A DNA stretch of 24,519 nt from a virus: positions 1 through 24,519 of IMG/VR virus record IMGVR_UViG_3300048918_000328; one strand, written 5' to 3'. Positions 1,311 through 20,100 of this stretch are shown one piece after another (positions within the stretch are counted from its first letter, which is position 1; each line of letters starts with the position of its first letter). Position numbers and translations under genes: made by a program. The notes beneath the pieces are model-generated. The model was given only the letters and a program-made list of their open reading frames with translations. It made no database searches and was not told the DNA's origin.

Positions 1311-1529
1311 TTAACTGGGCGCACTCGCGCACATTTGGGTCGCAACCGGGTCGCAGCCCGGAACGACTTCACGGGCGAGCTTGATCACGGCGTCGCCGGC
1401 GTCCCAAAAGGTCTGCCTGCCCCGCTTCATCCGGTGGACGGTGGGCTGGGAAGCATCAATGCGCGCGGCAATGCGAGCCTCGCTCCAACCCGCTTTTAGA
1501 AGGATGTGAACAGCGTCTGCTGGCTTCAT
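1311..1529 (-). CDS. Cro-like helix-turn-helix repressor
   Basis: A 72-aa small DNA-binding protein, divergent from the cI-type repressor and first in the early operon, as cro is in lambdoid phages. The HTH is visible in the N-terminal half: WSEARIAARIDASQPTVHRM, followed by a basic turn (KRGRQTF). The start at ATG 1529 leaves just over 100 bases between the divergent genes, holding three palindromes. In-frame ATGs at 1547 and 1541 would place operator DNA inside the coding sequence and are less likely. Role (family plus position): repression of the repressor promoter and tuning of early transcription. No paralogue of it is seen in the window. Confidence 0.75.
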   Translation of the reverse strand: MKPADAVHILLKAGWSEARIAARIDASQPTVHRMKRGRQTFWDAGDAVIKLAREVVPGCDPVATQMCASAPS

Positions 1530-1541
1530 GGCGCCCAGCAT

Positions 1542-1641
1542 ATTCATTACTGAATCACAAGGCAAGTCACAAATGAATCACTCGAATGTAGTTCAGGTGT
1601 GGCCGAGTGGAGGGATGCCCGAGCATTATTCAGGCATGAAT
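1542..1641. promoter_or_regulatory. Immunity operators: three ATTCA-N4-TGAAT inverted repeats
   Basis: Site A is ATTCA-TTAC-TGAAT (1542-1555). Site B is AGTCA-CAAA-TGAAT (1565-1578, one arm mismatch). Site C is ATTCA-GGCA-TGAAT (1628-1641). A and B are 23 bases apart, about two helical turns. They lie between the divergent Cro-like and cI-like genes, so they are the natural operators for those two regulators. Site C overlaps the proposed repressor start codon. A -10-like CATTAT at 1624-1629 would start transcription at or near that ATG, giving a leaderless message as in lambda PRM; no good -35 precedes it. The repeats are seen directly; the binding proteins are inferred. Confidence 0.7.
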
Positions 1642-2307
1642 CACCTCGCCAAAAATCTCGAATTCCTTATGCAGGGCCAGGAACTCAGTCCGCGCGACAT
1701 ACAGCGCCGGTGCGGGGTGTCACAGCCGACGATCCACCGGATCCTCACCAAGGATGATTACAAGCCCCGTATAGAAGCCATTGACACCTTGGCGGATCTG
1801 TTCGGCGTGTCCGCGCACGACCTGCGCTTCAGCGACCTATCCGAACCGGGCGCACTTGACGTGCCGGGCCCAAGGCACCTGCGCGACACCGTCCGCATCC
1901 AGGCCCTAAAGGATTTTGGCCCCCGGTCGACACAGTCAGATCGACTGTCCCCTTTCGAGCACCTCGATGTTTCGATGCCCTGGTTCACGGCGCACATCGG
2001 CTCCAATCCCGCTAACGTGCGGTTCGCAGTGATGCGGGACGACTCAATGCGTGGCGAAATAGAAATGGGGGATGTGGTATTCATCGACACCACTGCTACC
2101 AGCATTGAGCAGGCCGGCGACGGCATCTATGCCTTTACTTACTTTGGCATCAGCCACATCAAATACGGACAGCGCCCTAAGTTAGGCGAGCTCGTCTTCA
2201 AAGGAACGAAGCCCTTTCTGGACTCGATTCCCATAGAGGGCAACGAGCACGACGGCCTGCAGATCCATGGCCGCGTCGTTGCGAAGCTCAGTCTGACCAA
2301 GGTATAG
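1636..2307 (+). CDS. cI-type phage repressor, HTH plus S24 peptidase-like domain
   Basis: A 223-aa repressor. Residues 1-65 form an HTH domain (recognition region around RRCGVSQPTIHRIL). The C-terminal half is S24/LexA-like, with the Ser motif MRDDSM (Ser137) followed by EIEMGDVVFID, and a plausible catalytic Lys in HIKYG (Lys176). The usual GDSM reads DDSM here. The linker before the Ser motif has no Ala-Gly or Cys-Gly pair, the cleavage site in RecA-responsive repressors, so self-cleavage is doubtful. Start: ATG 1636 fits the family N-terminus. In-frame ATGs at 1573 (AAGG ten bases upstream) and 1615 are alternatives. It is divergent from the Cro-like gene and followed after 28 bases by the MASE1-like gene. 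Expected role: maintenance of lysogeny. Confidence 0.88.
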   Translation: MNHLAKNLEFLMQGQELSPRDIQRRCGVSQPTIHRILTKDDYKPRIEAIDTLADLFGVSAHDLRFSDLSEPGALDVPGPRHLRDTVRIQALKDFGPRSTQSDRLSPFEHLDVSMPWFTAHIGSNPANVRFAVMRDDSMRGEIEMGDVVFIDTTATSIEQAGDGIYAFTYFGISHIKYGQRPKLGELVFKGTKPFLDSIPIEGNEHDGLQIHGRVVAKLSLTKV

Positions 2308-2335: not shown

Positions 2336-3949
2336 ATGACCAAGCAGGGGAATGTCCGGCTGTGCGCCTACGTTGCGCTCGCCTATGCAGCGCTGTACTA
2401 CCTTCTTCGATCCACGCCATCCTTCATCAATTTGTCGGCAGGCCTCTCGTTGACGGCCTTTCTGTTTTCGAGCCGCCGGCTCTGGCCCGCCTATGTCGCT
2501 GGCCAATTGCTTGGCGCGTCGGTCGCCGCTCTCGGGCAATATGGCCAAGCGCCGTATACAACGACTTGGATGGCTACCGTCGTTGTTCTTCCCATGGTGG
2601 TTTCCTTGTGGATTGCGGTTGTAGCGCGGCGCTCTGAAGACCATGTCGGCTTCTTTGGATTGGGAGATGCGTCGCGATTCCTTGTCATTGCCGGACTCGG
2701 GTCCGTCGCACTCGGAGTGTCGGGGCTGGTGATCCTTTCCACTCTGGCCAGCGACGTCGAGGCGCTTTACCCCGGATGGGTGCGCCGCCTTTGGCTCTAT
2801 TCAATTGGGTCGTTTGTGGGCGCCATTGCAGTCGCACCTGCCGTCGCATCGATACGCGACCGATTTTTGGCGACCCGCTCCATTTCAGGCCTGCTGAAGG
2901 GCTTCGAATCGACCCTCCGCCGGCATTTCTTAGGAGCGCTTCACGTCTTGGCGTGGTGCGTGCCAGCCGTTGCGCTCTCCACAATCATCACGTCTCCGGA
3001 AGCCTTGTGGATAATCCGGTTGGCGATGGCCCTTGCGCTCTGCGCTACCACCGTTACCCGTTCACGACCGCAACCGATCGCGTTCGCTCTTCCGTGCGTG
3101 ATGATCTCGTTAGCCCTCACTCAGGGCGAGCAATTTCGGGCACCTCAATTGCTCCAGGTGACTGACCTGACAGCGTTCATTGGCGCACTGGTCCTCGTGG
3201 TCAGCATGCGCTCCGCCGAAGAGCGCGCCGTGGCCCGCAACGCTTCCGCGAATGCCAGGCATTGGAAGCGTTCCGCACAGGAACGCGCACAGCTGCCGAG
3301 CATCATTCGCCGACAGCAGGCCGCTCAGATCGACCGAGTCCTCAATTGCATCTCGCAAACTGATGCGGCGCTAAGGAACGAAGACAGGGACCGCGAAGAG
3401 GTCGCCATGACCTGGTGGCGAACGATCTCCACAGCACGTCACCAGCTGCGGTCGCTGCGTGATTCGGTTGCGCCACCCGTGCTCATCGGCCACGGTCTCG
3501 CGGCCGCCCTCGCCGCAAGCCCGGTTGTTGTTTCGGTCGAGGACGGCGGCGGCACTTACCACTCCCATACACCGGCGGCCGCCCGCGAGCTGTCTCAGAC
3601 GATCCAGGAGACGGCGTACCACGTCGCGACCAAGGCAGCATTTCTCCTCATGTCACATGGCCGCCCTTCACGCGTCGCTGTTCGCGTCAGAGTCGGTATG
3701 AAAGCTGGAAGGCGCTGGGCGGTTGTGACGGTGAAGGCGGACTCGGTCGCCGAATTGACCGAAGCGAACGATAGCCATATCCGCTACACCGAATCGTCGA
3801 TCAAGGATCTCGCCAAGATCGCGCGCGCCTTTGGCGGGGCATTGCACCGCCGTGATCTGGGCACCCGCCAGATCATCTCAGCGTTATTCGTGGATGATGC
3901 AGTGGAGACTGTCTTCGGCCTCCCAATGAAAAGGGCCGGCGAACGTTAA
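2336..3949 (+). CDS. MASE1-like membrane sensor with degenerate histidine-kinase-like C-terminus
   Basis: A 537-aa protein. Residues 1-291 hold about eight or nine hydrophobic segments (near 7-24, 34-62, 76-96, 112-136, 152-172, 198-217, 224-240, 245-262, 277-291), in the style of MASE1 integral membrane sensory domains. Residues 295-375 are charged and helical. Residues 376-520 resemble the NarX-type kinase core: PPVLIGHGLAAALAASP matches the end of a HisKA_3-like unit. QETAYHVATKAA sits where the ATPase N-box should be but lacks its Asn, and the expected DxGxG is replaced around VKADSVAEL. No phosphoacceptor His appears in an ERxxIARELHD-like motif. I infer a pseudokinase-like sensor. It follows the repressor by 28 bases and probably shares its lysogenic transcript. 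Immunity modulation, superinfection exclusion or host signalling are possible roles; none is shown. Confidence 0.7.
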   Translation: MTKQGNVRLCAYVALAYAALYYLLRSTPSFINLSAGLSLTAFLFSSRRLWPAYVAGQLLGASVAALGQYGQAPYTTTWMATVVVLPMVVSLWIAVVARRSEDHVGFFGLGDASRFLVIAGLGSVALGVSGLVILSTLASDVEALYPGWVRRLWLYSIGSFVGAIAVAPAVASIRDRFLATRSISGLLKGFESTLRRHFLGALHVLAWCVPAVALSTIITSPEALWIIRLAMALALCATTVTRSRPQPIAFALPCVMISLALTQGEQFRAPQLLQVTDLTAFIGALVLVVSMRSAEERAVARNASANARHWKRSAQERAQLPSIIRRQQAAQIDRVLNCISQTDAALRNEDRDREEVAMTWWRTISTARHQLRSLRDSVAPPVLIGHGLAAALAASPVVVSVEDGGGTYHSHTPAAARELSQTIQETAYHVATKAAFLLMSHGRPSRVAVRVRVGMKAGRRWAVVTVKADSVAELTEANDSHIRYTESSIKDLAKIARAFGGALHRRDLGTRQIISALFVDDAVETVFGLPMKRAGER

Positions 3950-3961
3950 TTCGCCGGCCCT
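3932..3961. terminator. Bidirectional intrinsic terminator between convergent genes
   Basis: A perfect 12-bp stem, AGGGCCGGCGAA (3932-3943) with TTCGCCGGCCCT (3950-3961), closes a 6-base loop that contains the TAA stop of the MASE1-like gene. Reading the minus strand, the stem is followed by TTTTC, so it is a better intrinsic terminator for the secreted-protein gene that converges on it. In the plus direction the U-tract is absent. Confidence 0.8.
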
Positions 3962-3987: not shown

Positions 3988-4491
3988 TCAGTTAACCGGC
4001 TTGCTGCACTCGATCGGGTCACCACAAGACAGCGCCTGAGCCTGCGGCGTGACGGTAGCGGCGGCAGGCGCCACAATCCGCGGCTTACTGCATTCGATCG
4101 GGTCGCCGCAGGCCGCTGGCTGGACCGATAGACCCGAACCGGTGGCCTGGATCGAGATGGCCTGGTCCGAGTAGACCGTAGCACCCTGCACGGCTGCGCC
4201 TTGCGGCGCCGTGGTCACGATCGACGGATTGCCGACCGGCAGGACCATAACGTTCTGCCCATCCGTAGCAATAGCTGCCAGCGGCGCCCCGTTCGCACCA
4301 TTGACCTGGATGAACTCGACTCCGTTTTGCACCCACCGATATGCGTGAAATGACGCATGGCTGCTGACGTCCTGGGCATTCGGCCAGTTCGAGCCTAGTC
4401 CCGCCTGGTCAGCGGAAGCGACGCCAGCCACCCCAAAACCCGCGACCAACGCCACCGCGGCGAGCATCCACCTCTTTGATCGATTTCCCAT
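3988..4491 (-). CDS. Secreted accessory protein with duplicated CGDPIECSKP motif
   Basis: A 167-aa protein with a clear Sec signal peptide: basic MGNRSKRW, a hydrophobic stretch to about residue 24, and a cleavage-like ASA-DQ near residue 27. The mature part is Ala/Val/Gln-rich and probably mostly beta. The C-terminal third carries CGDPIECSKP twice, the second copy four residues from the end (SKPVN), giving four cysteines that could make two disulfide loops. I do not recognise the family. A good ribosome site (AAGGGGAAAGCA) precedes ATG 4491. The gene stands alone, is antisense to its phage neighbours, and has its own terminator and a repressor-like palindrome upstream: the usual build of a lysogenic conversion gene. 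Export to the periplasm or beyond is inferred from the signal peptide. Confidence 0.75.
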   Translation of the reverse strand: MGNRSKRWMLAAVALVAGFGVAGVASADQAGLGSNWPNAQDVSSHASFHAYRWVQNGVEFIQVNGANGAPLAAIATDGQNVMVLPVGNPSIVTTAPQGAAVQGATVYSDQAISIQATGSGLSVQPAACGDPIECSKPRIVAPAAATVTPQAQALSCGDPIECSKPVN

Positions 4492-4550: not shown

Positions 4551-4576
4551 TGAATCAAATGATTCACTTGTGAATC
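4551..4576. promoter_or_regulatory. Distal repressor-like operator
   Basis: GATTCA-CTTG-TGAATC (4561-4576) has the same arms and 4-base spacer as the immunity operators about 3 kb away, with one extra base pair per arm. It overlaps a second palindrome, TGAATCA-AA-TGATTCA (4551-4566). It lies between the secreted-protein gene (start 4491, minus) and the accessory operon (start 4686, plus), so the immunity repressor or Cro-like protein could control either or both. No strong -35/-10 pair is evident on either strand. The region 4492-4685 otherwise holds only the two ribosome sites. Confidence 0.6.
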
Positions 4577-4685
4577 TATGAAGCGATACATTCGTGACTA
4601 GACCGGCAGGGCACGAATGCCCGCCCTGGTCACTGCGAAGCATACGGGCCGCGGTTGGCGGCGCACAGGCTCTGAGGACAAACCT

Positions 4686-4937
4686 ATGATCGAGAGCGCA
4701 GTCCATCACGCTGCCGGCCGTTTCCGGAAATGCCGGAAGTGCAAGGCCGAGCCCAAGCACTACAAAGTTCACGGCCGCCGCAGTGGCGAGCCCGTTCGGT
4801 TCGAGCCCTGCCCCGCCCGTCACCGCATCGCCTGCGGCTGCACGCAGACGGGCGAGCTGCCCACGCTCGAACTCGCGGAAACCGCCTGGGAGCAGGCGCA
4901 GCGCCGCACCAAACGCCCTGCAGCGGTGGCCGCATGA
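4686..4937 (+). CDS. Small zinc-ribbon-like phage protein, 83 aa
   Basis: A basic 83-aa protein with KCRKCKAEP (CX2C), then PCPARHRIACGC (CX7CXC), spaced as expected for a zinc ribbon; binding to nucleic acid is a guess. ATG 4686 has GAGG about nine bases upstream and is preferred over an upstream in-frame start at 4617. The stop overlaps the next ATG (ATGA). It is the first gene of the rightward accessory operon that ends in the integrase. Confidence 0.65.
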   Translation: MIESAVHHAAGRFRKCRKCKAEPKHYKVHGRRSGEPVRFEPCPARHRIACGCTQTGELPTLELAETAWEQAQRRTKRPAAVAA

Positions 4938-5167
4938 GCACGGCAACGCACTACTGGGAAAAGCTCGCCGCGGCTCACGACGCCCAGGCGCTCGCCCATC
5001 GCCTTTACGCCGAAGCGGCCCGCAAATCCGGCCGTTCCGACGAAACCACGCTGGCCACCATCAGCCACAACGACGTGCAGAGCGGCTATTTCGCGAAGCG
5101 CGCCGACGAAGCGCGCGCCAACGCCGCATGGCCCAGCACGCCCCTCGCCATCGCCTCGGAGGCCTGA
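4934..5167 (+). CDS. Hypothetical phage protein, 77 aa
   Basis: Unknown. A predicted all-helical, Ala-rich soluble protein (WEKLAAAHDAQALAHRLYAEA near the N-terminus). The start ATG overlaps the preceding stop (ATGA), supporting coupled translation, and the next gene begins two bases after its stop. No motif or cysteine pair is visible. Confidence 0.55.
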   Translation: MSTATHYWEKLAAAHDAQALAHRLYAEAARKSGRSDETTLATISHNDVQSGYFAKRADEARANAAWPSTPLAIASEA

Positions 5168-5169
5168 TC

Positions 5170-5376
5170 ATGCCTGCTGCCACCCTTCCTATTGCTCCGC
5201 CGGTGACCTTCAACGCAGCGCGTGAAGGCGACGCCTATCGCGGCGAGATCATCCAGTCCAACGGCGAGCGCGCTGCGCGCACCCGTCACCTCCACGCCAC
5301 CGTGCAGGCTGCGCTCCAAGCCGCTGATCGCTTGTGGAAGAGCCTCCGCGCCCAGGCCGCCGAGGTGGACTTGTGA
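5170..5376 (+). CDS. Hypothetical phage protein, 68 aa
   Basis: Unknown small protein. The middle reads as two beta strands (DAYRGEIIQSNGERAARTRH) followed by a helix (HATVQAALQAADRLWKSL), a plausible compact domain. ATG 5170 follows the previous stop by two bases, and GAGG is present in the end of the preceding gene. The stop overlaps the following GTG start. Confidence 0.55.
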   Translation: MPAATLPIAPPVTFNAAREGDAYRGEIIQSNGERAARTRHLHATVQAALQAADRLWKSLRAQAAEVDL

Positions 5377-5579
5377 TCGTCACCGATCGCACCGGCTCCA
5401 AAGGCGATGTCGCGGCGGCCGTCAAAGCCGCCCTCGCCCGAATTCAGAGCGCCACGCAGGTGCCCGAGCTGTTCGACAAGCAGCCGGGCGCCTGGATCGT
5501 CTCGTGGCCGTCCATCTGCGCGGCCTGGGTGATCGCCGCGCTCATCGCCTACTGCCGTTTCACCGGCCGCATCCAGTAA
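5373..5579 (+). CDS. Small single-pass membrane protein, 68 aa
   Basis: Starts at GTG 5373, overlapping the upstream stop, with GAGGT about eight bases before it. Residues 1-45 are soluble and helical. A single hydrophobic segment near the C-terminus (SICAAWVIAALIAYCRF) is followed by a short basic tail, so it is probably a C-terminally anchored inner-membrane protein. No family recognised. Membrane insertion within an otherwise soluble accessory operon is its only distinctive feature. Confidence 0.55.
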   Translation: MIVTDRTGSKGDVAAAVKAALARIQSATQVPELFDKQPGAWIVSWPSICAAWVIAALIAYCRFTGRIQ

Positions 5580-5594
5580 CTAAGGGGAACATCT

Positions 5595-5918
5595 ATGGAA
5601 CTCATCGCATCACTAACTGCTCCCGTCCAAGCAGTGCACGCCACCGACATTCTCGCGGCAGCTGCCGACAGCATTGATGACCGCGCCGCTTTGCGCGATC
5701 AAGCCGATGGCGAGCGCAGCATGGCGCGAGCCATTTCCGCCTTCAACGCAGTTCATGGCACCCAATTGACCGAACTGCAGGGCTGGAACCTCATGCTGCT
5801 GTTGAAGATCGCCCGAAGCACCGCTGGCCGCACAAACGCTGACGATTACACCGATATGGCCGGCTACGCGGCGCTCGCCGGCGAATGCGCGCAACGCGTG
5901 CACCAGGCGGCCGCGTAG
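5595..5918 (+). CDS. DUF6378-like phage protein
   Basis: A 107-aa protein matching the DUF6378 pattern known from many phages: DQADGERSMARAISAFNAV, then a Gly-Trp-x-hydrophobic helix (GWNLMLLLKIAR), then an Asn/Asp-Asp-Tyr-x-Asp signature (NADDYTDMAGYAALAGE). The family's enzymatic function is not established to my knowledge; its acidic helices recall MazG-like pyrophosphohydrolases, which is only a comparison. AAGGGGA precedes ATG 5595. The gene is intact and of normal length. Confidence 0.75.
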   Translation: MELIASLTAPVQAVHATDILAAAADSIDDRAALRDQADGERSMARAISAFNAVHGTQLTELQGWNLMLLLKIARSTAGRTNADDYTDMAGYAALAGECAQRVHQAAA

Positions 5919-5920
5919 TC

Positions 5921-6109
5921 GTGAGCCAGCAGAAACGCGATGCGAAGCAGCTGACCCGAGCCGCCGAGTCCCTCACGGGCCGGTGGTTTTGCGGTTCGGG
6001 CCAGCACTTCGTCACCGGCGACGCCGTGCTCCGCAACGGCAGGCGCGTATGCATCGCCTGCAGCCGACGCATGGCTGAGCTGCGCCGCAAGCAGCGTAAC
6101 CAGGGGTAA
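5921..6109 (+). CDS. Small zinc-finger phage protein, 62 aa
   Basis: Starts at GTG 5921, two bases after the previous stop. It has a basic N-terminal helix, then WFCGSGQHFVTGDAVLR and RRVCIACSRRM. One Cys plus His in the first half and CX2C in the second suggest a single treble-clef or ribbon zinc site. The C-terminal helix is strongly basic, consistent with nucleic acid contact. No named family recognised; the ribosome site is weak. Confidence 0.55.
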   Translation: MSQQKRDAKQLTRAAESLTGRWFCGSGQHFVTGDAVLRNGRRVCIACSRRMAELRRKQRNQG

Positions 6110-6113
6110 GACG

Positions 6114-6386
6114 ATGGACGCAAAAGCACGTCAGCGGCGGCGAGCTCAGAACGCCGCTCGCATCATCAGCGCAATCCAGCCCGCGCAAGGTCAGCTCACG
6201 AAAGCCCAGGACGAGTTGGCCCTCATGTACACGCCGCCTGGCGTTGCCATGGCATTGCTTCGCGCCGGGGCCGAGATGGAACGGGCGATACGGATGGCGG
6301 AGCGCGCCATGCATCGCGCATCGCGCAAGGCACTTCGCGGCGAGCCGTTGGCCGCCGCCACTCACCAAACGGGGGAATCCCTTTGA
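6114..6386 (+). CDS. Hypothetical helical phage protein, 90 aa
   Basis: Unknown. Strongly basic N-terminus (KARQRRRAQNAAR), then helices rich in Ala and Met (MALLRAGAEMERAIRMAERAM). It ends inside the first codons of the ParB-like gene by a 4-base overlap, so the two are probably co-translated. It may be a DNA-binding or adaptor protein for its neighbour, which is inference from position only. Confidence 0.5.
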   Translation: MDAKARQRRRAQNAARIISAIQPAQGQLTKAQDELALMYTPPGVAMALLRAGAEMERAIRMAERAMHRASRKALRGEPLAAATHQTGESL

Positions 6387-8266
6387 TCACTTCCATTCCG
6401 CTTTCCAAGCTGGTCCCGTCGTCACTCAACGTCCGCAAGACGGGCGGCGAGAACATCAGTGACCTCGCGGCGTCCATTCGGGCCCATGGCCTCATCCAGA
6501 ATCTGACGGTGGTGGCCAAAGGCGACCAATTCGAAGTCGTTGCAGGCGACCGCCGCCGGCGCGCGCTCTACCTGGTTGAGAAGCTGGACGGCAAGCTGCC
6601 AGCGCCGCTCGATGAAGGCATTCCTTGCAAGATCGTTCACGCCTCTGACGCGCTCGACGCCAGCCTCGCAGAAAACACCGTGCGCGAAGCCATGCACCCC
6701 GCCGATCAGTTCGATGCATTTCAGGCGATGACGGAGCGCGGCATCGGTGTCTCGGCCATCGCAGCCTCATTTGGCTGCAGCGACGCCGTGGTGAAGCAAC
6801 GCCTGAAGCTGGCCAAAGTATCGCCCAAGCTCATCGAGGCCTACCGCGCCAATCAGATGACGTTGGAGACGCTGCAGACCTTCAGCATCACGGACGACCG
6901 CAAGCAGCAGGAACGCGTGTGGAAGGATGCCAGCGGGATGAACCCGCTGTACCAGGCCCGCTACGTGCGCAGCCAACTCACCACGAGCGAGATAGAGTTT
7001 GCGGACAGCCGCGATGCTCAACTCGTAGGGCTCGATGAGTACCAGGCTGCTGGCGGCTTCATTCGCCGTGACATGTTCACGCGCGCCGTGTACCTAGATC
7101 GCGGCCTGGTCGACAAGCTGGTCGCGCGGAAGCTTGATCTGCTCAAGATGGAGGTGAAAGCCGAGGGCTGGGCCTGGGTGGAGCTGAAGCGCGAATACGT
7201 CTCCCTGCACAATTTCAAGCGCAAGAAGGCCACTAAGCGCACGCCGACCGACGACGAGCAGGAGCAGATGTCAGAGCTGGAGGCCGAGCGTGACCGGCTA
7301 CGCGACCGCCAGAGGGGGCTCGACGACATCGACGGCGACGAGGTCGACGATTTCATCCAGAACGAGATGAGTGACCTTGAGTCGGCAGTGGAGGCCATCG
7401 ACAACCAGCTCGCAGTTCTGCAGGGCAAACTTGAATCCTTTTCCCCCAAGGTCATGGCTGGGTCCGGCGCCATCATCGAGTTCGCGTACAACGGGCTGCG
7501 CATCCATCGCGGCCTGATCAAAGCGGCAGACGCGAAGAAGGCCGAGCAAGCAAAGCACGCGAAGGCCAACGGCTCCGCCGTCGCGCCGGAGTCGACTGAG
7601 CTGTCCAACGCTATGGTCGAGCGCCTCACCGGCTACCGCACGGCCGCCATGCAGCACGAGCTGGCCAAGCACACCGATGTGGCGCTAGCGCTCCTGGCCT
7701 GGGGACTTCTTCAGAGCACGCTGGGGGAGCACTGGTTCCGCGATCTCGGCGAACTGAAAGCGAGCCCCTACATCGATGGCAGCCTCGATCGCATTGGTGT
7801 TGCCCCTGACTTTTCACCGCGCGAAGCACTCGCCAAGATCACGGAAGAGTGGCGCGAGCAGATCCCCGATGATGGTGAAGCCGCACTCCGCTGGGTGCTC
7901 GATCTGCCGGAGCATGAGCTTCACGAACTCCTGGGCGTCTGCGCCGCTTGCGCCTTTAACGGTACGTTCGGAACGCAGACCCATAACGGCGAACACCGCA
8001 AACGCGAGCTCGTCGAGATCCTCGCGACGCGCCTCGAATTCGACATGGCAAAGCACTGGCAGCCCACCGTCGACAATTTCCTGGGCTCCGTTCCCAAGGC
8101 GGTGCTGATCGAAGCGGTCAGCGAGGCGTGCGGCGCGGAAAGCGCCAAGAAGCTGCAGCCACTCAAGAAGGCCGACGCCGGCGCGCTGGCCGAGGAAATG
8201 CTCGATGGCACCGGTTGGCTTCCCGCGCCTTTGCGCCTTGTCTGGGAGGTGAGCCATGGGAATTGA
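6383..8266 (+). CDS. ParB/RepB/Spo0J-family protein without a ParA partner
   Basis: A 627-aa protein. Residues 1-110 carry the ParB N-domain: a VRKTGG-type loop, the arginine-rich box AGDRRRRA (about 54-61) and ENTVRE (97-102), the two regions that bind nucleotide in ParB CTPases. Residues 122-145 form the HTH (VSAIAASFGCSDAVVKQRL). The remaining 450 residues, including an acidic coiled-coil-like part near 290-350, are far longer than chromosomal ParB (roughly 300 aa) and resemble large ParB-like proteins of plasmids and phages. No ParA-type ATPase and no obvious parS palindrome are visible in the window. It overlaps both neighbours. Possible roles are regulation, partition of a plasmid form, or recombination; the last two are speculation. 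Confidence 0.85.
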   Translation: MITSIPLSKLVPSSLNVRKTGGENISDLAASIRAHGLIQNLTVVAKGDQFEVVAGDRRRRALYLVEKLDGKLPAPLDEGIPCKIVHASDALDASLAENTVREAMHPADQFDAFQAMTERGIGVSAIAASFGCSDAVVKQRLKLAKVSPKLIEAYRANQMTLETLQTFSITDDRKQQERVWKDASGMNPLYQARYVRSQLTTSEIEFADSRDAQLVGLDEYQAAGGFIRRDMFTRAVYLDRGLVDKLVARKLDLLKMEVKAEGWAWVELKREYVSLHNFKRKKATKRTPTDDEQEQMSELEAERDRLRDRQRGLDDIDGDEVDDFIQNEMSDLESAVEAIDNQLAVLQGKLESFSPKVMAGSGAIIEFAYNGLRIHRGLIKAADAKKAEQAKHAKANGSAVAPESTELSNAMVERLTGYRTAAMQHELAKHTDVALALLAWGLLQSTLGEHWFRDLGELKASPYIDGSLDRIGVAPDFSPREALAKITEEWREQIPDDGEAALRWVLDLPEHELHELLGVCAACAFNGTFGTQTHNGEHRKRELVEILATRLEFDMAKHWQPTVDNFLGSVPKAVLIEAVSEACGAESAKKLQPLKKADAGALAEEMLDGTGWLPAPLRLVWEVSHGN

Positions 8267-9110
8267 ATCGAGCATCCTTAAGTCGCTGCGCGCCGCCGGC
8301 GAGCCTGTCGCCATCAACGAGCTCGCCATCGTCACCGGTACCGACACCAACGACACGGCCGCGATGCAGAAGCTGCGGAACGCGTTGCGCGGCATGGTGC
8401 ACAAACGGCAGCTGCTTAGCCGGAACGGCCTGGACGGCATCCTGCGGTACATGCTGCCAGGGTCACCTGTGGCCCGCGTCGCGTCTGTACCTCAGCCCGA
8501 CGCTGATGCGGCTCAGCAAGCGTCGGAGATCCGTGCCGCCGCGGAATGCCCCGGCGATAGCACTCCGGCGCCCGAGGGCACTGCAGCCGACAAACCCGAC
8601 GTTGCTGTCGGGCGGCTTGGCACCAAGACCCTTCTTGTGTTCCAGGCGCTCCGCGAGGGCGAATGGGTGGAACGCGGCACCCTGGACTTCCGGACCAAGC
8701 TCAGCATGACGGAAGTGCTCACCGGCCTGACCGCCTTGCGTAAGCGCGGACTGGTCGTCTCACAGGGCACAAAGGCAAATACGCTTTGGGCTCGTGCAGA
8801 CGCAGCAACGCTTGCCCATTTCGATCAGGCTGCTGCCTTCATGGAGCGCGTGTCGGAGGCCATGCCTAAAGCGGTCGCCCTGGTAGCCGCCCCTGCGCCG
8901 AAGGCGGTGTTGCCGTCTGCATCACCTGACAGCGACGAAGCGCGGCGCTACCGTTGGTTGATCGAGAACGCAGACATCTCGTTCTCATTCGGCGGCATCA
9001 GCATGCGTTCGGCGTTTTCACCGAAGGCCGGCGAAGCGAAGGTGCTTTGGGACGCGGCCATCGACACGATGCTTTCGATGGCGCCGGCGCGCACTGAGGT
9101 GAGCGCATGA
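8256..9110 (+). CDS. Phage protein with two winged-helix-like units
   Basis: A 284-aa protein. Residues 1-70 and about 120-180 each look like winged-helix DNA-binding units: ILKSLRAAGEPVAINELA and VFQALREGEWVERGTLDF start the two, each ending in a short hydrophobic wing. A Pro/Ala-rich linker separates them. The C-terminus begins with DEARRYRWLIENADISF, a recurring tail in phage accessory proteins. GGAGG six to seven bases before ATG 8256 supports the start, which overlaps the ParB-like gene by 11 bases. The overlap and DNA-binding features suggest it works with that protein; this is inference. No named family recognised. Confidence 0.65.
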   Translation: MGIESSILKSLRAAGEPVAINELAIVTGTDTNDTAAMQKLRNALRGMVHKRQLLSRNGLDGILRYMLPGSPVARVASVPQPDADAAQQASEIRAAAECPGDSTPAPEGTAADKPDVAVGRLGTKTLLVFQALREGEWVERGTLDFRTKLSMTEVLTGLTALRKRGLVVSQGTKANTLWARADAATLAHFDQAAAFMERVSEAMPKAVALVAAPAPKAVLPSASPDSDEARRYRWLIENADISFSFGGISMRSAFSPKAGEAKVLWDAAIDTMLSMAPARTEVSA

Positions 9111-9691
9111 ATGGAACAAAGGCCAAGCTACGGAAGCTGGAACGTTACGAGATTGCGATGGAGCAGTTTCAACGGTGGCTAGTCGAATTCCCTGATCTAC
9201 TCCACGCATTGCGCACCCTGCAGGCCCATGTCGATGGCGAAAGTCTGAACGCCGGCACCTCTCTGGGACTAGAGCACTGCTCGATTAACGGTCTGAGGGA
9301 GCAGCTTCGTCGTAGCAAGCGCCAGGCCGACGCGGACGCCCGCGGCAGCGCCAAGGCGGGAGAGGTGGATGTTCCGGCCAGTCTCCAGGCTCTGTCTGCC
9401 TCTGCAACGCCTGGTAAGTGGCGCTCGATGCGTGAGGGCAACCAATTCGTCGACACCTCATATCTGCCCACCGCAAAATGCGTTGGCGCTTCCCGGATCG
9501 ATGGCCCGAAGCGCCCCTGGAATCCGCACGCGCTGATCACCTTTGGCTTCAAACCCGAAGAGTACGAGAAGGTCCGCATGACGGACGCCGACGCCGACTT
9601 CGTGTGCGCGCTGGTGAACTGGTGCCGCGAGACAATCGCCCTCTCTACCCAACGCGGTGGCGCCAGTGAGATGGGGGTGGGGAATGGGTGA
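9107..9691 (+). CDS. Hypothetical phage protein, 194 aa
   Basis: Unknown. The N-terminal 80 residues are helical and charged. The C-terminal part (from LSASATPGKW to the MTDADADFVCALVNWCR helix) resembles the phage modules that begin ATPGPW and contain a DAxFIxxxxN segment, though no function is assigned to them. The ATG overlaps the preceding stop (ATGA) with GAGGTGAGC upstream. Its stop lies inside the next gene. Confidence 0.6.
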   Translation: MNGTKAKLRKLERYEIAMEQFQRWLVEFPDLLHALRTLQAHVDGESLNAGTSLGLEHCSINGLREQLRRSKRQADADARGSAKAGEVDVPASLQALSASATPGKWRSMREGNQFVDTSYLPTAKCVGASRIDGPKRPWNPHALITFGFKPEEYEKVRMTDADADFVCALVNWCRETIALSTQRGGASEMGVGNG

Positions 9692-9887
9692 TTCTCTTGC
9701 CGAAGCGCTTCCGGGCGAGATCGAGCGCGTGCAGGAACTGCTGCCGCTCTATGACGCCATTCCGACCGGCATATTCGCCGCAACGATGATGCGCAACTCG
9801 ATCAAGGCTGCGCATGCCGCGATGGTCGCGGGTGACGTCATCGCCATGATCCAGTGCTACGAAGATCTCAAGGGCTACAAAGCATGA
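9684..9887 (+). CDS. Small conserved-type phage protein, 67 aa
   Basis: Starts at ATG 9684, overlapping the upstream stop by eight bases and preceded by GTGGGGA. Pattern: LPGEIERVQELLPLYDAIP, then FAATMMRNSIKAAHAAM, then GDVIAMIQCYEDLKGY. I recall this arrangement from short proteins in other proteobacterial prophages near the integrase, but it has no function I can name. It is entirely helical with no cysteine pairs or membrane segment. Confidence 0.6.
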   Translation: MGDSLAEALPGEIERVQELLPLYDAIPTGIFAATMMRNSIKAAHAAMVAGDVIAMIQCYEDLKGYKA

Positions 9888-9905
9888 CCGCGGCAGAGGC
9901 AACTC

Positions 9906-10124
9906 ATGAGTGAGACCTGGCTTACGCCCGAGGAAGTCACCCAGCTCACCGCGAAGAAGCGGTGGTCTGCTCAATGCAAAGCGCTCACGATGATGGGCAT
10001 ACCGTTTCGCCCGAATGCCGTCGGCCGCCCCCTGGTCGAGCGCGCGATGGCGTTGATCTCGCGCGCACCGCCAAAGCCGAAACGCCGCGAGCCTGATTTC
10101 TCCAGTCTCTTTCGAGCGATCTGA
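9906..10124 (+). CDS. DUF4224-like protein in the excisionase position
   Basis: A 72-aa protein with the DUF4224 layout: WLTPEEVTQLTAKKRWSAQ, then a second helix and the IPFRPNAVGRPLVERA hairpin. The domain is a small winged-helix-like fold commonly encoded next to phage integrases, where a recombination directionality factor would sit. It ends one base before the integrase ATG, so the two are surely co-expressed. An excisionase role is inferred from position and size; direct evidence for the family is not known to me. Confidence 0.8.
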   Translation: MSETWLTPEEVTQLTAKKRWSAQCKALTMMGIPFRPNAVGRPLVERAMALISRAPPKPKRREPDFSSLFRAI

Positions 10125-10125
10125 C

Positions 10126-11115
10126 ATGGGACGCAAACGCACCGCTAACAAGCACCTGCCGCGCCGCATGCAGCTCAAGCACGGCGCCTACTACTACGTC
10201 TCGCGCAAGGACGGAAAGCCGCACTGGCTGCGCCTGGGCGATGACTATGCGATCGCGCTGCAGGAGTGGGCGAAACTGGAGGGCGCGGCCCGTCCCGACA
10301 AGATGACGGTCGGCGGAGCCATCGCGCATTACCTGCAGGTCGCCGGCAAACGCCTCTCGCCACGCACCGTGGATAACTACGGCTGGAGCGCAAAGGCTTT
10401 GCTGCCTGTATTCGGCGAACTGTTGCTCGAGGAAGTGGAGCGCTCGCACGTCTACACATACCTGGTGCAGAAGGGCAACGTCGCTGCCAACCGCGACCGC
10501 GCGCTGCTTTCCGCCGCGTACAACCACATGATGAATGCCGGTCTGTACAAAGGCGAAAACCCCGCCGCCGGCATGCGCTTCCGCAACAAGGAAACGGCGC
10601 GCGATCGCTACGTCACCGACGCCGAGCTCGATGCGCTGGTGGCGCAGGCCTCGACACGTTTTGGCGACCTGCTGCAGTTCGCCTACATCACCGGCATGCG
10701 TCAGCTCGACCTGGTCAGTCTGAACCTGACGGCCGCGACCGACGATGGCATCGCCTACATCGACAGCAAAACCAAGAAGCGCCACGTCATCGGCTGGACC
10801 GATGAGCTCACCACGCTGTGGAAGCGCATCGCAGGCCTCCGCATTGGCTCTCAGCCGGCGTTCCTGACCCGCGACGGCACGCGCTATACCACCACCGGCC
10901 TGAAGGCCTCGTGGCGCCACGTGAAGCTACGGGCGAAGCTGGGTGATCTCACGTTCCATGACATCCGCCGCAAGAGCGGCAGCGATGCCGACGACGAGGC
11001 GCATGCGCAGCAGCTGCTGGGTCACGCGGATCCGAAGGTGACCCGCAAGCACTACCGGGCCAAGCCCACCACGGTGAGCCCAATCACGCCAAATAATAGA
11101 CAGAAGCGCGAATAG
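10126..11115 (+). CDS. int: Tyrosine-family phage integrase
   Basis: A 329-aa integrase of normal length. Residues 1-60 form the arm-binding N-terminus (with YYYVSRKDGKPHWLRLG), residues 60-150 the core-binding SAM-like domain, and residues 160-311 the catalytic domain. Catalytic residues are visible: Arg192 in TGMRQLDL, Lys217 or 218 in the beta hairpin, His278 and Arg281 in FHDIRRKSG, His300 in LLGHADP and the nucleophile Tyr310 in RKHYR. It catalyses site-specific recombination between attP and a chromosomal site. The 3' end runs into the attachment region, and a tRNA-Asn fragment 47 bases downstream is the likely crossover site. It closes the rightward accessory operon. Confidence 0.95.
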   Translation: MGRKRTANKHLPRRMQLKHGAYYYVSRKDGKPHWLRLGDDYAIALQEWAKLEGAARPDKMTVGGAIAHYLQVAGKRLSPRTVDNYGWSAKALLPVFGELLLEEVERSHVYTYLVQKGNVAANRDRALLSAAYNHMMNAGLYKGENPAAGMRFRNKETARDRYVTDAELDALVAQASTRFGDLLQFAYITGMRQLDLVSLNLTAATDDGIAYIDSKTKKRHVIGWTDELTTLWKRIAGLRIGSQPAFLTRDGTRYTTTGLKASWRHVKLRAKLGDLTFHDIRRKSGSDADDEAHAQQLLGHADPKVTRKHYRAKPTTVSPITPNNRQKRE

Positions 11116-17388: not shown

Positions 17389-20100
17389 TTACTCCATGAG
17401 ATACGCGCCCGAGCCGTCCTCGGTCGCATAGTGATTCGATCCGCTTTCCGCGATGTAAAACGAATGGTCGAGCGCGGAGATCGAGAAACTGAAGCTGTGG
17501 CGTTGCCAGCTGGCAAGGCCATCGCGTGCGCTTTCCAGCTCGACGCGATAGGAGCCCACCGTCGCAGGCGTCCATCGCAACGCTGTTGCGTCGATCCCTG
17601 CCAACGTGGCCACCAGGGTGTTACTGCTGTCGTAGACCCGCACCGTATAGGTGGTGCCCGCCTCGGGCGCCACGCCCGCCATTGACGTATCGACCAGCTG
17701 GTCGGCTTGTATGAGGCGATTGCGATGCACCCAGCTCAGTTGCAGGCTACCGGTGATCGCCGGATTCCCCCAGGGCGATGCACCATTGAGCGTTACTTGA
17801 GCAGGTGGATAGGGTCGGAACTGCCGCTGGCTAAACGTCAAGCTCAACGCGGTGGCCATGGTCGGATCAAGCTGCTGGGTACCGGTATTGGTCAAGAGCT
17901 TCACCGAGATCGTCTCACCCGCGGTGTACTCGGTGAAGTCGTTCGCGGCTACCGCACCGAAAAACCACACGCGACTGCCGGCGGCATGCACGGCAGGCGT
18001 CGTATCGGCGCAGCCTCGCCCAAATTGGACAGCACCGGTGCCCACGTCGATCGCGTCCACACGCACGATCTCGTCATCCCAGAGGCCTGCCATACCGACT
18101 GCGACGAGCTCAAGGTTGACGCCCTGGGACAGCGTAAACGTCGTGTCACCAAAGGCTGATGCTTGCGCCATTGTCGCGGTGGGACACCATTCACCTGTGC
18201 CGACCGCAGCGAAGTCGCCGCCGGCGGCCGACACCGTCTCGGTGAAGTCCCGACTGCTCGCCGGATCAGCCGCAACAGCGAATCCAAAGCCTACGTCGTC
18301 CGGGAGCACCGCCAGGTTAGCCCGCGACAAGCTCGTCACCACTTCGATATATGGAGCCTCGAACAGGCGCTGGAGAGCGATCGCGACAGGCTTCTGTGAC
18401 GGACGCGTATCGACCCCGTGCTCGGCGTCGATGAACGTCGCCGCCGGGAGGCTATAGATGTCCTGCGACGCGGTGATCTTGATCGCACCCGACTTGAGGG
18501 TGCCGCTGGACTTTTCAGCCAGGATGCAAACCATGTCCGCGATGCCGCGCTTGGGCGACTGCAATCGAAAGTACGTGCCCACGCGCCAGCCGTATGGGGC
18601 GCGGGTCGTGGTGAGCTCAAAGGCGCGTGTCGGGGTGACGGAAGCCCGTAGGTCACGGGTGGCCACGCGAAGAGCCAGATCGTAAGTCGGAAGCTCCGGG
18701 TACGACGCCTGGTCGAAGATCGTCCCAAAGGCATCGATCAGAGCCATGGCCTGAACCGGCGCGGTGGTGAGCGATTCCTTCTCCTGCGGATCAAAAAACG
18801 TCACGCTCACGCTGTTGGTCGCGCTGTCCTGCACACTCGGCGATTCGCTGAAGTCGAGGATATCGTCATCAGTCAAGACAGGAAGGCTTTCTAGATCATA
18901 GACACCGTTGGCGATGTCCAGGTACCACAGACCATCGATCGGGCTGCGGCTCATGCTGCAGCCGGCGACCTTCTCGATGCGTGCAACGAAGTCATCATAG
19001 GTCTCGCTGGCAGGATCGTACGCGGTACACAGGCCAAACGCCTGCGACGCGTACCAGTCAGCGGCGGCGCGAAAGCTGGCGTCACTCATGTTGCCCACGG
19101 GCTCGCGCCCCATGTCTTGCTGGGTGCGCGCGTAGTACAACACGTGCGCTGGGTTCATCGAGTACCACGACTCCATCACGGCACTCGATGCCACGATCAT
19201 GCGGTGCTGCGTGGGTGTCCCGAGCGCCAGCCCCGTGTTGATGTCTAGCGAATCGACACAGGCAAAGCACACCCAGCCATGAAACGGCGCGCTGCTGGCC
19301 GGCACGATCACCTGCACACCGGTTGCCGTCAGATAGGTGTCGACGGGCAACGGCGGCGTGCTGTCGCCGATGGTGACGCCGCTGGTGCCGATGACCTTGC
19401 CTGAGTCGTCATAGTTGATCTTGACGTCCATCGTGAAGCTGTTCGGCACGCCGTTGGGCGCATCAATATGCATCCAGAGAAGCCCTGTCGCACCGATGCC
19501 CGCGGGGAACGTAGGAGTCAGTGTGCTCGGCTCGGTGGCATAGGCAGATGGATCAGTCGCCCATGAGGCGACATCGCCAGGCGATGTGAACGTGATCGGT
19601 GAACCGACCGTCTTCTCCCAGGTAATGCCTGCGATGATCGCTTGAATGAGCGGATCGTTTGCCAGCCCGATCGCTGCCTTTTCGGGATACCAGCAGACGT
19701 CGTTATCCCACCCTTTCACGACACGCATAATTTTGTAGCTGGGCTTCTGCGGGTAGGGGTTCATGGCGCCATACCGGCCGCCCTTGAATACCAACGTCGC
19801 CAGCCCGCGCCATGCGGGCTGCTGGCTGCCGAACACGGAGCTCAGATACGCATTAGGCTGCTGAGTGGCTTCGCCAAACATCACATCAACGTCGCCCGAT
19901 ATACCGCCTTGATCTTTCTCGCCACCCCAGAGGTTTGGCGCACTGATGGTGATCGTGCCGCTGCTGGTCAGGTTGCCCGCCCATGCGGTTTGGTCACCAC
20001 CACGAAATTCGAGTAATGCATCGATCGGGCCCACGCCAAGGCCGGCGTGATAGGCGACCTTGTACCAGTAGCCGACCGTGGTTTTGCCACCCTTACCCAT
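17389..20100 (-). CDS. Tail-tip host-specificity protein (J-like)
   Basis: A 903-aa protein. The N-terminus begins MGKGGKTTVGYWYKVAYHAGL (first residues MGKGGKTTVGYWYKVAYHAG) and holds GG-rich tail-hub motifs. The middle (about 370-520, including DDFVARIEKVAGCSMSRSP, then DILDFSESPSVQDSATNS and VTFFDPQEKE) resembles Phage-tail_3/J-type modules. The C-terminal 120 residues contain a fibronectin III-like repeat (TYTVRVYDSSNTLVATL ... YRVELES). Length is typical of J-like proteins. It is the receptor-contacting or baseplate-hub component. It overlaps the small protein upstream by eight bases and is followed by the two accessory tail genes. Confidence 0.88.
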   Translation of the reverse strand: MGKGGKTTVGYWYKVAYHAGLGVGPIDALLEFRGGDQTAWAGNLTSSGTITISAPNLWGGEKDQGGISGDVDVMFGEATQQPNAYLSSVFGSQQPAWRGLATLVFKGGRYGAMNPYPQKPSYKIMRVVKGWDNDVCWYPEKAAIGLANDPLIQAIIAGITWEKTVGSPITFTSPGDVASWATDPSAYATEPSTLTPTFPAGIGATGLLWMHIDAPNGVPNSFTMDVKINYDDSGKVIGTSGVTIGDSTPPLPVDTYLTATGVQVIVPASSAPFHGWVCFACVDSLDINTGLALGTPTQHRMIVASSAVMESWYSMNPAHVLYYARTQQDMGREPVGNMSDASFRAAADWYASQAFGLCTAYDPASETYDDFVARIEKVAGCSMSRSPIDGLWYLDIANGVYDLESLPVLTDDDILDFSESPSVQDSATNSVSVTFFDPQEKESLTTAPVQAMALIDAFGTIFDQASYPELPTYDLALRVATRDLRASVTPTRAFELTTTRAPYGWRVGTYFRLQSPKRGIADMVCILAEKSSGTLKSGAIKITASQDIYSLPAATFIDAEHGVDTRPSQKPVAIALQRLFEAPYIEVVTSLSRANLAVLPDDVGFGFAVAADPASSRDFTETVSAAGGDFAAVGTGEWCPTATMAQASAFGDTTFTLSQGVNLELVAVGMAGLWDDEIVRVDAIDVGTGAVQFGRGCADTTPAVHAAGSRVWFFGAVAANDFTEYTAGETISVKLLTNTGTQQLDPTMATALSLTFSQRQFRPYPPAQVTLNGASPWGNPAITGSLQLSWVHRNRLIQADQLVDTSMAGVAPEAGTTYTVRVYDSSNTLVATLAGIDATALRWTPATVGSYRVELESARDGLASWQRHSFSFSISALDHSFYIAESGSNHYATEDGSGAYLME

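Follow-up and report, generated by a model that had tools for sequence, protein, structure and literature searches.

Eight distinct phages and prophages carry a repressor, a membrane sensor and a convergent small secreted protein (SSP) in that order, and this common layout suggests that the viral lysis/lysogeny switch has incorporated a cell-surface signalling pair. One of the eight is IMG/VR virus record IMGVR_UViG_3300048918_000328, of which we analysed the 24,519-nt stretch from position 1 (the window). Its sensor is one of a large family of UhpB-like pseudokinases from Xanthomonadales, most of them paired with an SSP, and lies in the following immunity cassette:

1314–1541, minus strand: small Cro-like HTH protein whose gene diverges from that of the repressor (HTH-type sequence SEARIAARIDASQPTVHRMKRG; Pfam HTH_23 matched weakly, E 0.002)
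1542–1555, unstranded: operator-like palindrome ATTCATTACTGAAT, of the form ATTCA-N4-TGAAT
1565–1578, unstranded: operator-like palindrome with one mismatch, AGTCACAAATGAAT
1628–1641, unstranded: operator-like palindrome ATTCAGGCATGAAT, overlapping the likely repressor start
1636–2307, plus strand: CI-like repressor, HTH plus peptidase S24 (Pfam HTH_31 and Peptidase_S24; PHROG 4, E 6e-21)
2336–3949, plus strand: UhpB-like MASE1 pseudokinase, 537 aa, open frame, in the position that rexAB holds in lambda
3932–3961, unstranded: strong hairpin with a 12-bp stem over the sensor stop (fold −25.8 kcal/mol, z −4.1)
3988–4491, minus strand: SSP, 167 aa, conserved convergent partner of the sensor gene, with a signal peptide, a beta-rich core and two CGDPIEC motifs at the C-terminus
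4562–4575, unstranded: operator-like palindrome ATTCACTTGTGAAT in the gap separating SSP from the divergent rightward genes, 71 bp upstream of the SSP start
4617–11115, plus strand: divergent rightward operon beyond the second operator, a pL-like arm (ParB-like protein 6383–8266, tyrosine integrase 10126–11115)

By its ORF coordinates the pseudokinase starts 28 bases past the repressor stop (2307) in the same direction. This was already part of the first-pass annotation, and most of what that annotation read from the protein itself is borne out: hydropathy gives about 8–9 membrane segments within residues 1–295, the GHGLAAAL block lies at residues 386–393, and alignment to true MASE1 kinases places the phospho-His, the N-box Asn and the G1 motif all among the missing elements. 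The H-box of the true kinases, RRHMAAELHDELGQN, is replaced by RRQQAAQI-DRVLNC (residue 325), their N-box YRLVQESATNAVKHA by YHVATKAAFLLMSHG (residue 428), and their G1 motif DIRDDGVGLP by TVKADSVAEL (residue 465). The hairpin over the sensor stop is probably a bidirectional terminator that separates the convergent sensor and SSP genes.

Structure prediction, which had been proposed as a check, returned a fold match of HisKA_3/HATPase type. The AF2 model of the window pseudokinase, built on family sequences (mean pLDDT 86.8), consists of a helical membrane bundle, a long coiled coil (270–349), a helical hairpin and an alpha/beta sandwich at about 388–520; Foldseek gave the DesK catalytic core as its top PDB match (prob 1.0, E 1.6e-4), with RetS also among the fold matches. 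The kinase region, previously labelled NarX-like, is instead UhpB/DesK (HisKA_3)-like, and 54 of 55 family members match NCBIfam UhpB. The MASE1-like domain is upheld by homologues that match Pfam MASE1 at 1e-13 to 1e-20; the window protein is assigned to MASE1 through homology only, by a profile of chromosomal relatives alone that matches it end to end (1.4e-52, an E value scaled to a nominal 1,000,000 sequences), and the sensor of prophage G012 reached only E 0.0024 against the MASE1 profile, below the cut-off. Taken alone, the window pseudokinase matched nothing in Pfam, NCBIfam or PHROGs. Direct searches with it or with its first homologue yielded nothing useful in those collections, in PDB sequences, or in phages, plasmids, and viral and genome contigs.

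The relatives were reached through the tail protein at 17389–20100, which led to 28 related viral contigs and from there to the first sensor homologue, a 27%-identical protein (E 4.6e-34) in the isolate prophage G012 that again lies directly after a repressor. With a two-sequence profile, relatives, mostly full-length, were detected in 155 of 397 genomes of the order containing Lysobacter, often several per genome; other family members are 18–25% identical to the window protein. Among 102 sensors classified, 25 retain His, Asn and Asp and are true kinases, while the remaining 77, that is, the window copy and 76 further family members, lack the phospho-His, the N-box Asn and the G1 Asp together. 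Since the whole family is kinase-dead at the same positions, the degenerate kinase is a family hallmark and not a ruin left in a phage. The first-pass description of a ruined kinase core was right about the dead core and missed that the ruin is a trait of a large chromosomal UhpB-like pseudokinase family; because the trait is family-wide, we rejected the idea of an active kinase decaying within this phage. The sensor tree places the phage copies in two well-supported groups, joined to each other only weakly (71). Their branches are long, so the exact origin of these copies is unsure.

The SSP gene adjoins 60 of the 77 pseudokinase genes, at the 3' end and always convergently, versus none of the 25 true MASE1 kinases, about 19 of which adjoin a NarL/FixJ-type response-regulator gene by neighbour clustering. 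A reverse search found a sensor gene adjacent to 50 of 53 SSP genes, a set that included 20 picked for having no listed partner. On gene neighbourhood, then, a protein of secreted type and a membrane receptor are closely paired as genes. SSP was present in 111 of 233 genomes from the family to which G355, another carrier, belongs, and in only 2 of 369 sampled genomes of the class, one of them G355. Many Xanthomonadales genomes hold multiple sensor/SSP copies. Distances in the sensor and SSP sets are correlated (r 0.89), which we rejected as evidence of binding because adjacent genes are inherited together.

The conserved SSP core, GLGxxWPNAxDVS...WHVYVF..G..YVQVNDLNG, is predicted with confidence to be beta-rich. 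Its predicted structure has no PDB match and the 53 members have no consistent Pfam match, and we thus rejected its assignment to a known fold. The C-terminal motif CxDPxEC is repeated, with two copies in the window protein (3988–4491) and at least three in L111 (2466–3248), and may form a repeated disulfide loop.

Several variants of the chromosomal arrangement were observed. Twelve pseudokinases that lack SSP (L078, L079, L087, L101, L112, L113, L122, L126, L127, L128, L132 and L152) form a clade, a separate sub-family in which one conserved gene, possibly a class II DAHP synthase of about 461 aa, stands upstream of each sensor gene. Locus L284 (2233–9016) holds two sensor/SSP pairs in opposite orientation within 7 kb, with both SSP genes between the sensors. 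The IMG/VR contigs L211 and L212 carry a chromosomal-type pseudokinase plus SSP with no repressor match nearby, and could represent either flanking host DNA or a different type of phage. In L092, L093 and L135 the pseudokinase/SSP pair directly follows a CheY-like single-domain response regulator. These three pairs excepted, chromosomal pairs have no conserved upstream regulator, and the link to a repressor is therefore specific to the phage copies.

The eight phage copies reside in the window and G012, both virus records; in G355 (its copy equals viral contig L210), G255 (L207) and G441; twice in G079 (G079a and G079b, one of which equals L208); and in L206. L206, L207, L208 and L210 are viral contigs with the triad. 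The G355 copy is proven to be prophage-borne by the terminase, portal, DnaC loader and integrase nearby, and one of the two G079 copies has a primosomal protein in its neighbourhood. Where they could be aligned, the repressors are 20–40% identical to that of the window. In all eight phages the sensor directly adjoins the repressor on the same strand (gaps of 12, 12, 29, 38, 28 and −3 bases in the six measured cases, the other two being directly adjacent), which agrees with the earlier proposal that the sensor is coupled to the repressor. That proposal omitted the chromosomal pseudokinase family, the SSP partner and the operator-like sites common to both promoter regions. The ParB-like protein of the window's rightward operon (PHROG 7783) is large, and its whole length is similar to stretches of two gut phage records at 33–34% identity.

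In the window, operator-like sites stand at 1542, 1565 and 1628 and again at 4562, a layout repeated in the other seven phages. The repressor ORF opens at 1528 and alignment of homologues favours a start at 1636 (MNHLAKNLEFL), while the Cro-like ORF spans 1311–1565 with a likely start near 1541; the palindromes at 1542 and 1628 fall between the two starts. ATTCA-N4-TGAAT occurs only three times in 24.5 kb (1542, 1628 and 4562) versus 0.01 expected, and TGAATCAAATGATTCA at 4551–4566 adjoins the last of these. The window site was picked after looking; the same rule then held in the other phages with different letters. In each of the eight, an operator-like palindrome found at the repressor promoter recurs on the SSP side, with different letters from phage to phage: ATGCT-N4-AGCAT in G012, ATGCA-N4-TGCAT in G355, TAAACAC-A-GTGTTTA in G255, ATAAAC-N5-GTTTAT in G079b, AGTAAG-N7-(C/T)TTACT in G441, TGGTTGA-N6-TCAACCA in L206 (the second copy with one mismatch) and TTTACC-N5-GGTAAA in G079a, where the second pair is imperfect. 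Five cases of sharing are exact; measured against random windows from those records, their chance probability is 6e-8. The palindromes are likely repressor binding sites. A consensus promoter scan gave nothing above chance. As the divergent operon starts beyond SSP in seven of the eight phages, which is also the arrangement at lambda OL, the second operator may serve that operon, SSP or both. In G079a, a 399-aa tRNA_anti-like (OB-fold) protein is encoded between the second operators and SSP, in the SSP direction (L217:14337–15536).

The repressors themselves differ in their S24 catalytic residues. Four of the eight (G079a, G079b, G441 and L206) lack both Ser and Lys of the dyad, whereas all 14 aligned control repressors from the same bacterial family retain both; these controls were chosen by a good PHROG 4 match, which favours intact dyads, and one further control, L034, was left out as it did not align over the dyad. 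The substituted repressors (L217:17662–18378, L216:5626–6435, L213:8389–9114 and L206:10006–10755) have Asn, Val or Ala for Ser and Arg for Lys. They look related, apparently as one lineage, and count as one lineage-level fact. Having lost the dyad, those four phages cannot use self-cleavage and therefore need another input. A missing linker cleavage site (Ala-Gly/Cys-Gly) was dropped as evidence, being true of the window and other phages but also of several controls.

The cassette closely resembles the lambda immunity region (cro-OR-cI-rexA-rexB-OL), with divergent Cro-like and CI-like genes around an operator group, an accessory membrane-protein gene directly after the repressor and a second operator before the integrase-side operon. 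It differs in having a MASE1 pseudokinase in place of rexAB and an extra convergent secreted-protein gene by the second operator. No sequence relation to Rex was seen, the window pseudokinase being without a Pfam, PHROG or PADLOC match. The lambda rex genes use the repressor's maintenance promoter and RexB is a membrane protein; RexA biases the lambda switch and the Rex proteins contact CI (PMC11077077). The rex position is therefore known both for exclusion and for switch tuning. The first-pass statement that no characterised immunity region has such a partner holds in that we found none described with a membrane pseudokinase and a secreted partner, with the caveat that lambda rexAB occupies the same position.

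Other known systems share parts of the design. UhpB and other MASE1-HisKA_3-HATPase_c kinases of the DesK fold class have the same full-length architecture and predicted fold, but the window family lacks the phospho-His, N-box, G1 and response regulator and has SSP instead of UhpC/UhpA. RetS, which acts on GacS, and the ChrS pseudokinase variant of Corynebacterium are precedents for pseudokinases with a histidine-kinase fold (PMC12148439, PMC4866733, PMC9491836), and the phage protein would likewise have to act without phosphotransfer of its own; RetS differs in being a hybrid kinase with a known partner. Phage-borne receptors, sometimes with a secreted signal, lie near life-cycle control genes in the arbitrium AimP-AimR system, in phiCDHM1, which carries agr genes (agrDBC; PMC3901668), among phage LuxR receptors and in the LuxI/LuxR pair of a Phaeobacter prophage. 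Those systems use a short peptide or small molecule, whereas the putative system here would use a folded secreted protein of about 150 aa and a membrane pseudokinase. The literature searched contained no phage signal-receptor system with a membrane pseudokinase and a secreted partner.

Our leading explanation, held tentatively, is that a captured host-derived membrane receptor and its secreted partner bring a signal from the envelope or from neighbours to bear on the immunity circuit. We favour it because these sensors usually come with SSP, because both genes are retained in the phages, and because SSP repeatedly has operator-like sites beside it; the loss of the dyad in four repressors and the restriction of operonic coupling with a regulator to the phage copies also speak for it. 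An exclusion or lysogenic-conversion role like that of Rex, in which cargo expressed by the lysogen shields the host against other phages, or modifies the host envelope, without taking part in the switch, is nearly as likely. Position and co-transcription as in lambda rexAB, with RexB a membrane protein (PMC11077077), find their counterpart here in the same-strand adjacency seen throughout; RexAB-type defence is known in other prophages (PMC12894663); and chromosomal copies without phage genes indicate that the pair has a job of its own. Yet PADLOC gave no defence match for the window pseudokinase and SSP lies beside the second operator, outside the repressor transcript, while the influence of RexA on the switch and the Rex contacts with CI mean that a role in the switch need not be excluded even then. 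The chromosomal pairs, which exist without any phage repressor, also count against the favoured switch-tied pair, since the basic job of the pair is then not immunity. So does the second operator, which faces the divergent early operon in seven of eight phages, so that control of SSP may be incidental; in G079a the second operators are 1.5 kb from SSP, upstream of another same-direction gene. The intact Ser/Lys dyad of the window repressor points the same way.

The pseudokinase might also be a decoy that pairs with a true MASE1-HisKA_3 kinase of the host, or with chromosomal pseudokinases, and so alters host signalling. The same bacterial group does encode true MASE1 kinases with response regulators, the DHp/coiled-coil fold is kept in the AF2 model, and RetS and the ChrS variant offer models for such pairing. 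We consider this unlikely: the degenerate state is family-wide, dozens of host paralogues included, the low identity of the window protein to family members makes direct pairing with a host kinase uncertain, and the tie to the repressor and the shared operator-like sites are left unexplained. That the pair is a passenger, a host moron under no selection for function in the phage, would suit the long branches of the phage copies and is very improbable given the open frames, the intact triad in eight divergent phages, its tight spacing, the conserved SSP core and the shared operator-like sites.

Under the favoured switch-tied pair, a lambda-type cassette (cro, OR, cI, rex position, OL-like) would hold a host-derived membrane signalling pair in the rex position. 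The pseudokinase would be made together with the repressor in the lysogen, where SSP would be held down by the repressor, to be released upon repressor loss or in a newly infected cell. From outside the inner membrane, SSP would act on the MASE1 part of the pseudokinase. As the pseudokinase is without phosphotransfer chemistry, it would relay its state by protein contact, either through tethering and release of the repressor or through pairing with a host kinase, and the lysis/lysogeny balance would thereby be adjusted to the state of the envelope or to neighbouring infected cells. A more specific and doubtful form is a protein-ligand/receptor system in which repressor-free cells release SSP and lysogens display the MASE1 receptor, which would retune the repressor through direct contact with it. 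Lysogens would thereby respond to infection or induction in cells nearby, and in some phages this input would take the place of SOS self-cleavage.

The sensor/SSP pair, whose secreted member has no Pfam entry, appears in no paper that we found. Should the pair prove to signal to the repressor, lysogeny would gain an input from the envelope or from other cells by way of a kinase-dead receptor. The phage copies, with their short circuit and the ready read-out of induction, would then be the easiest place to learn the role of the chromosomal pairs.
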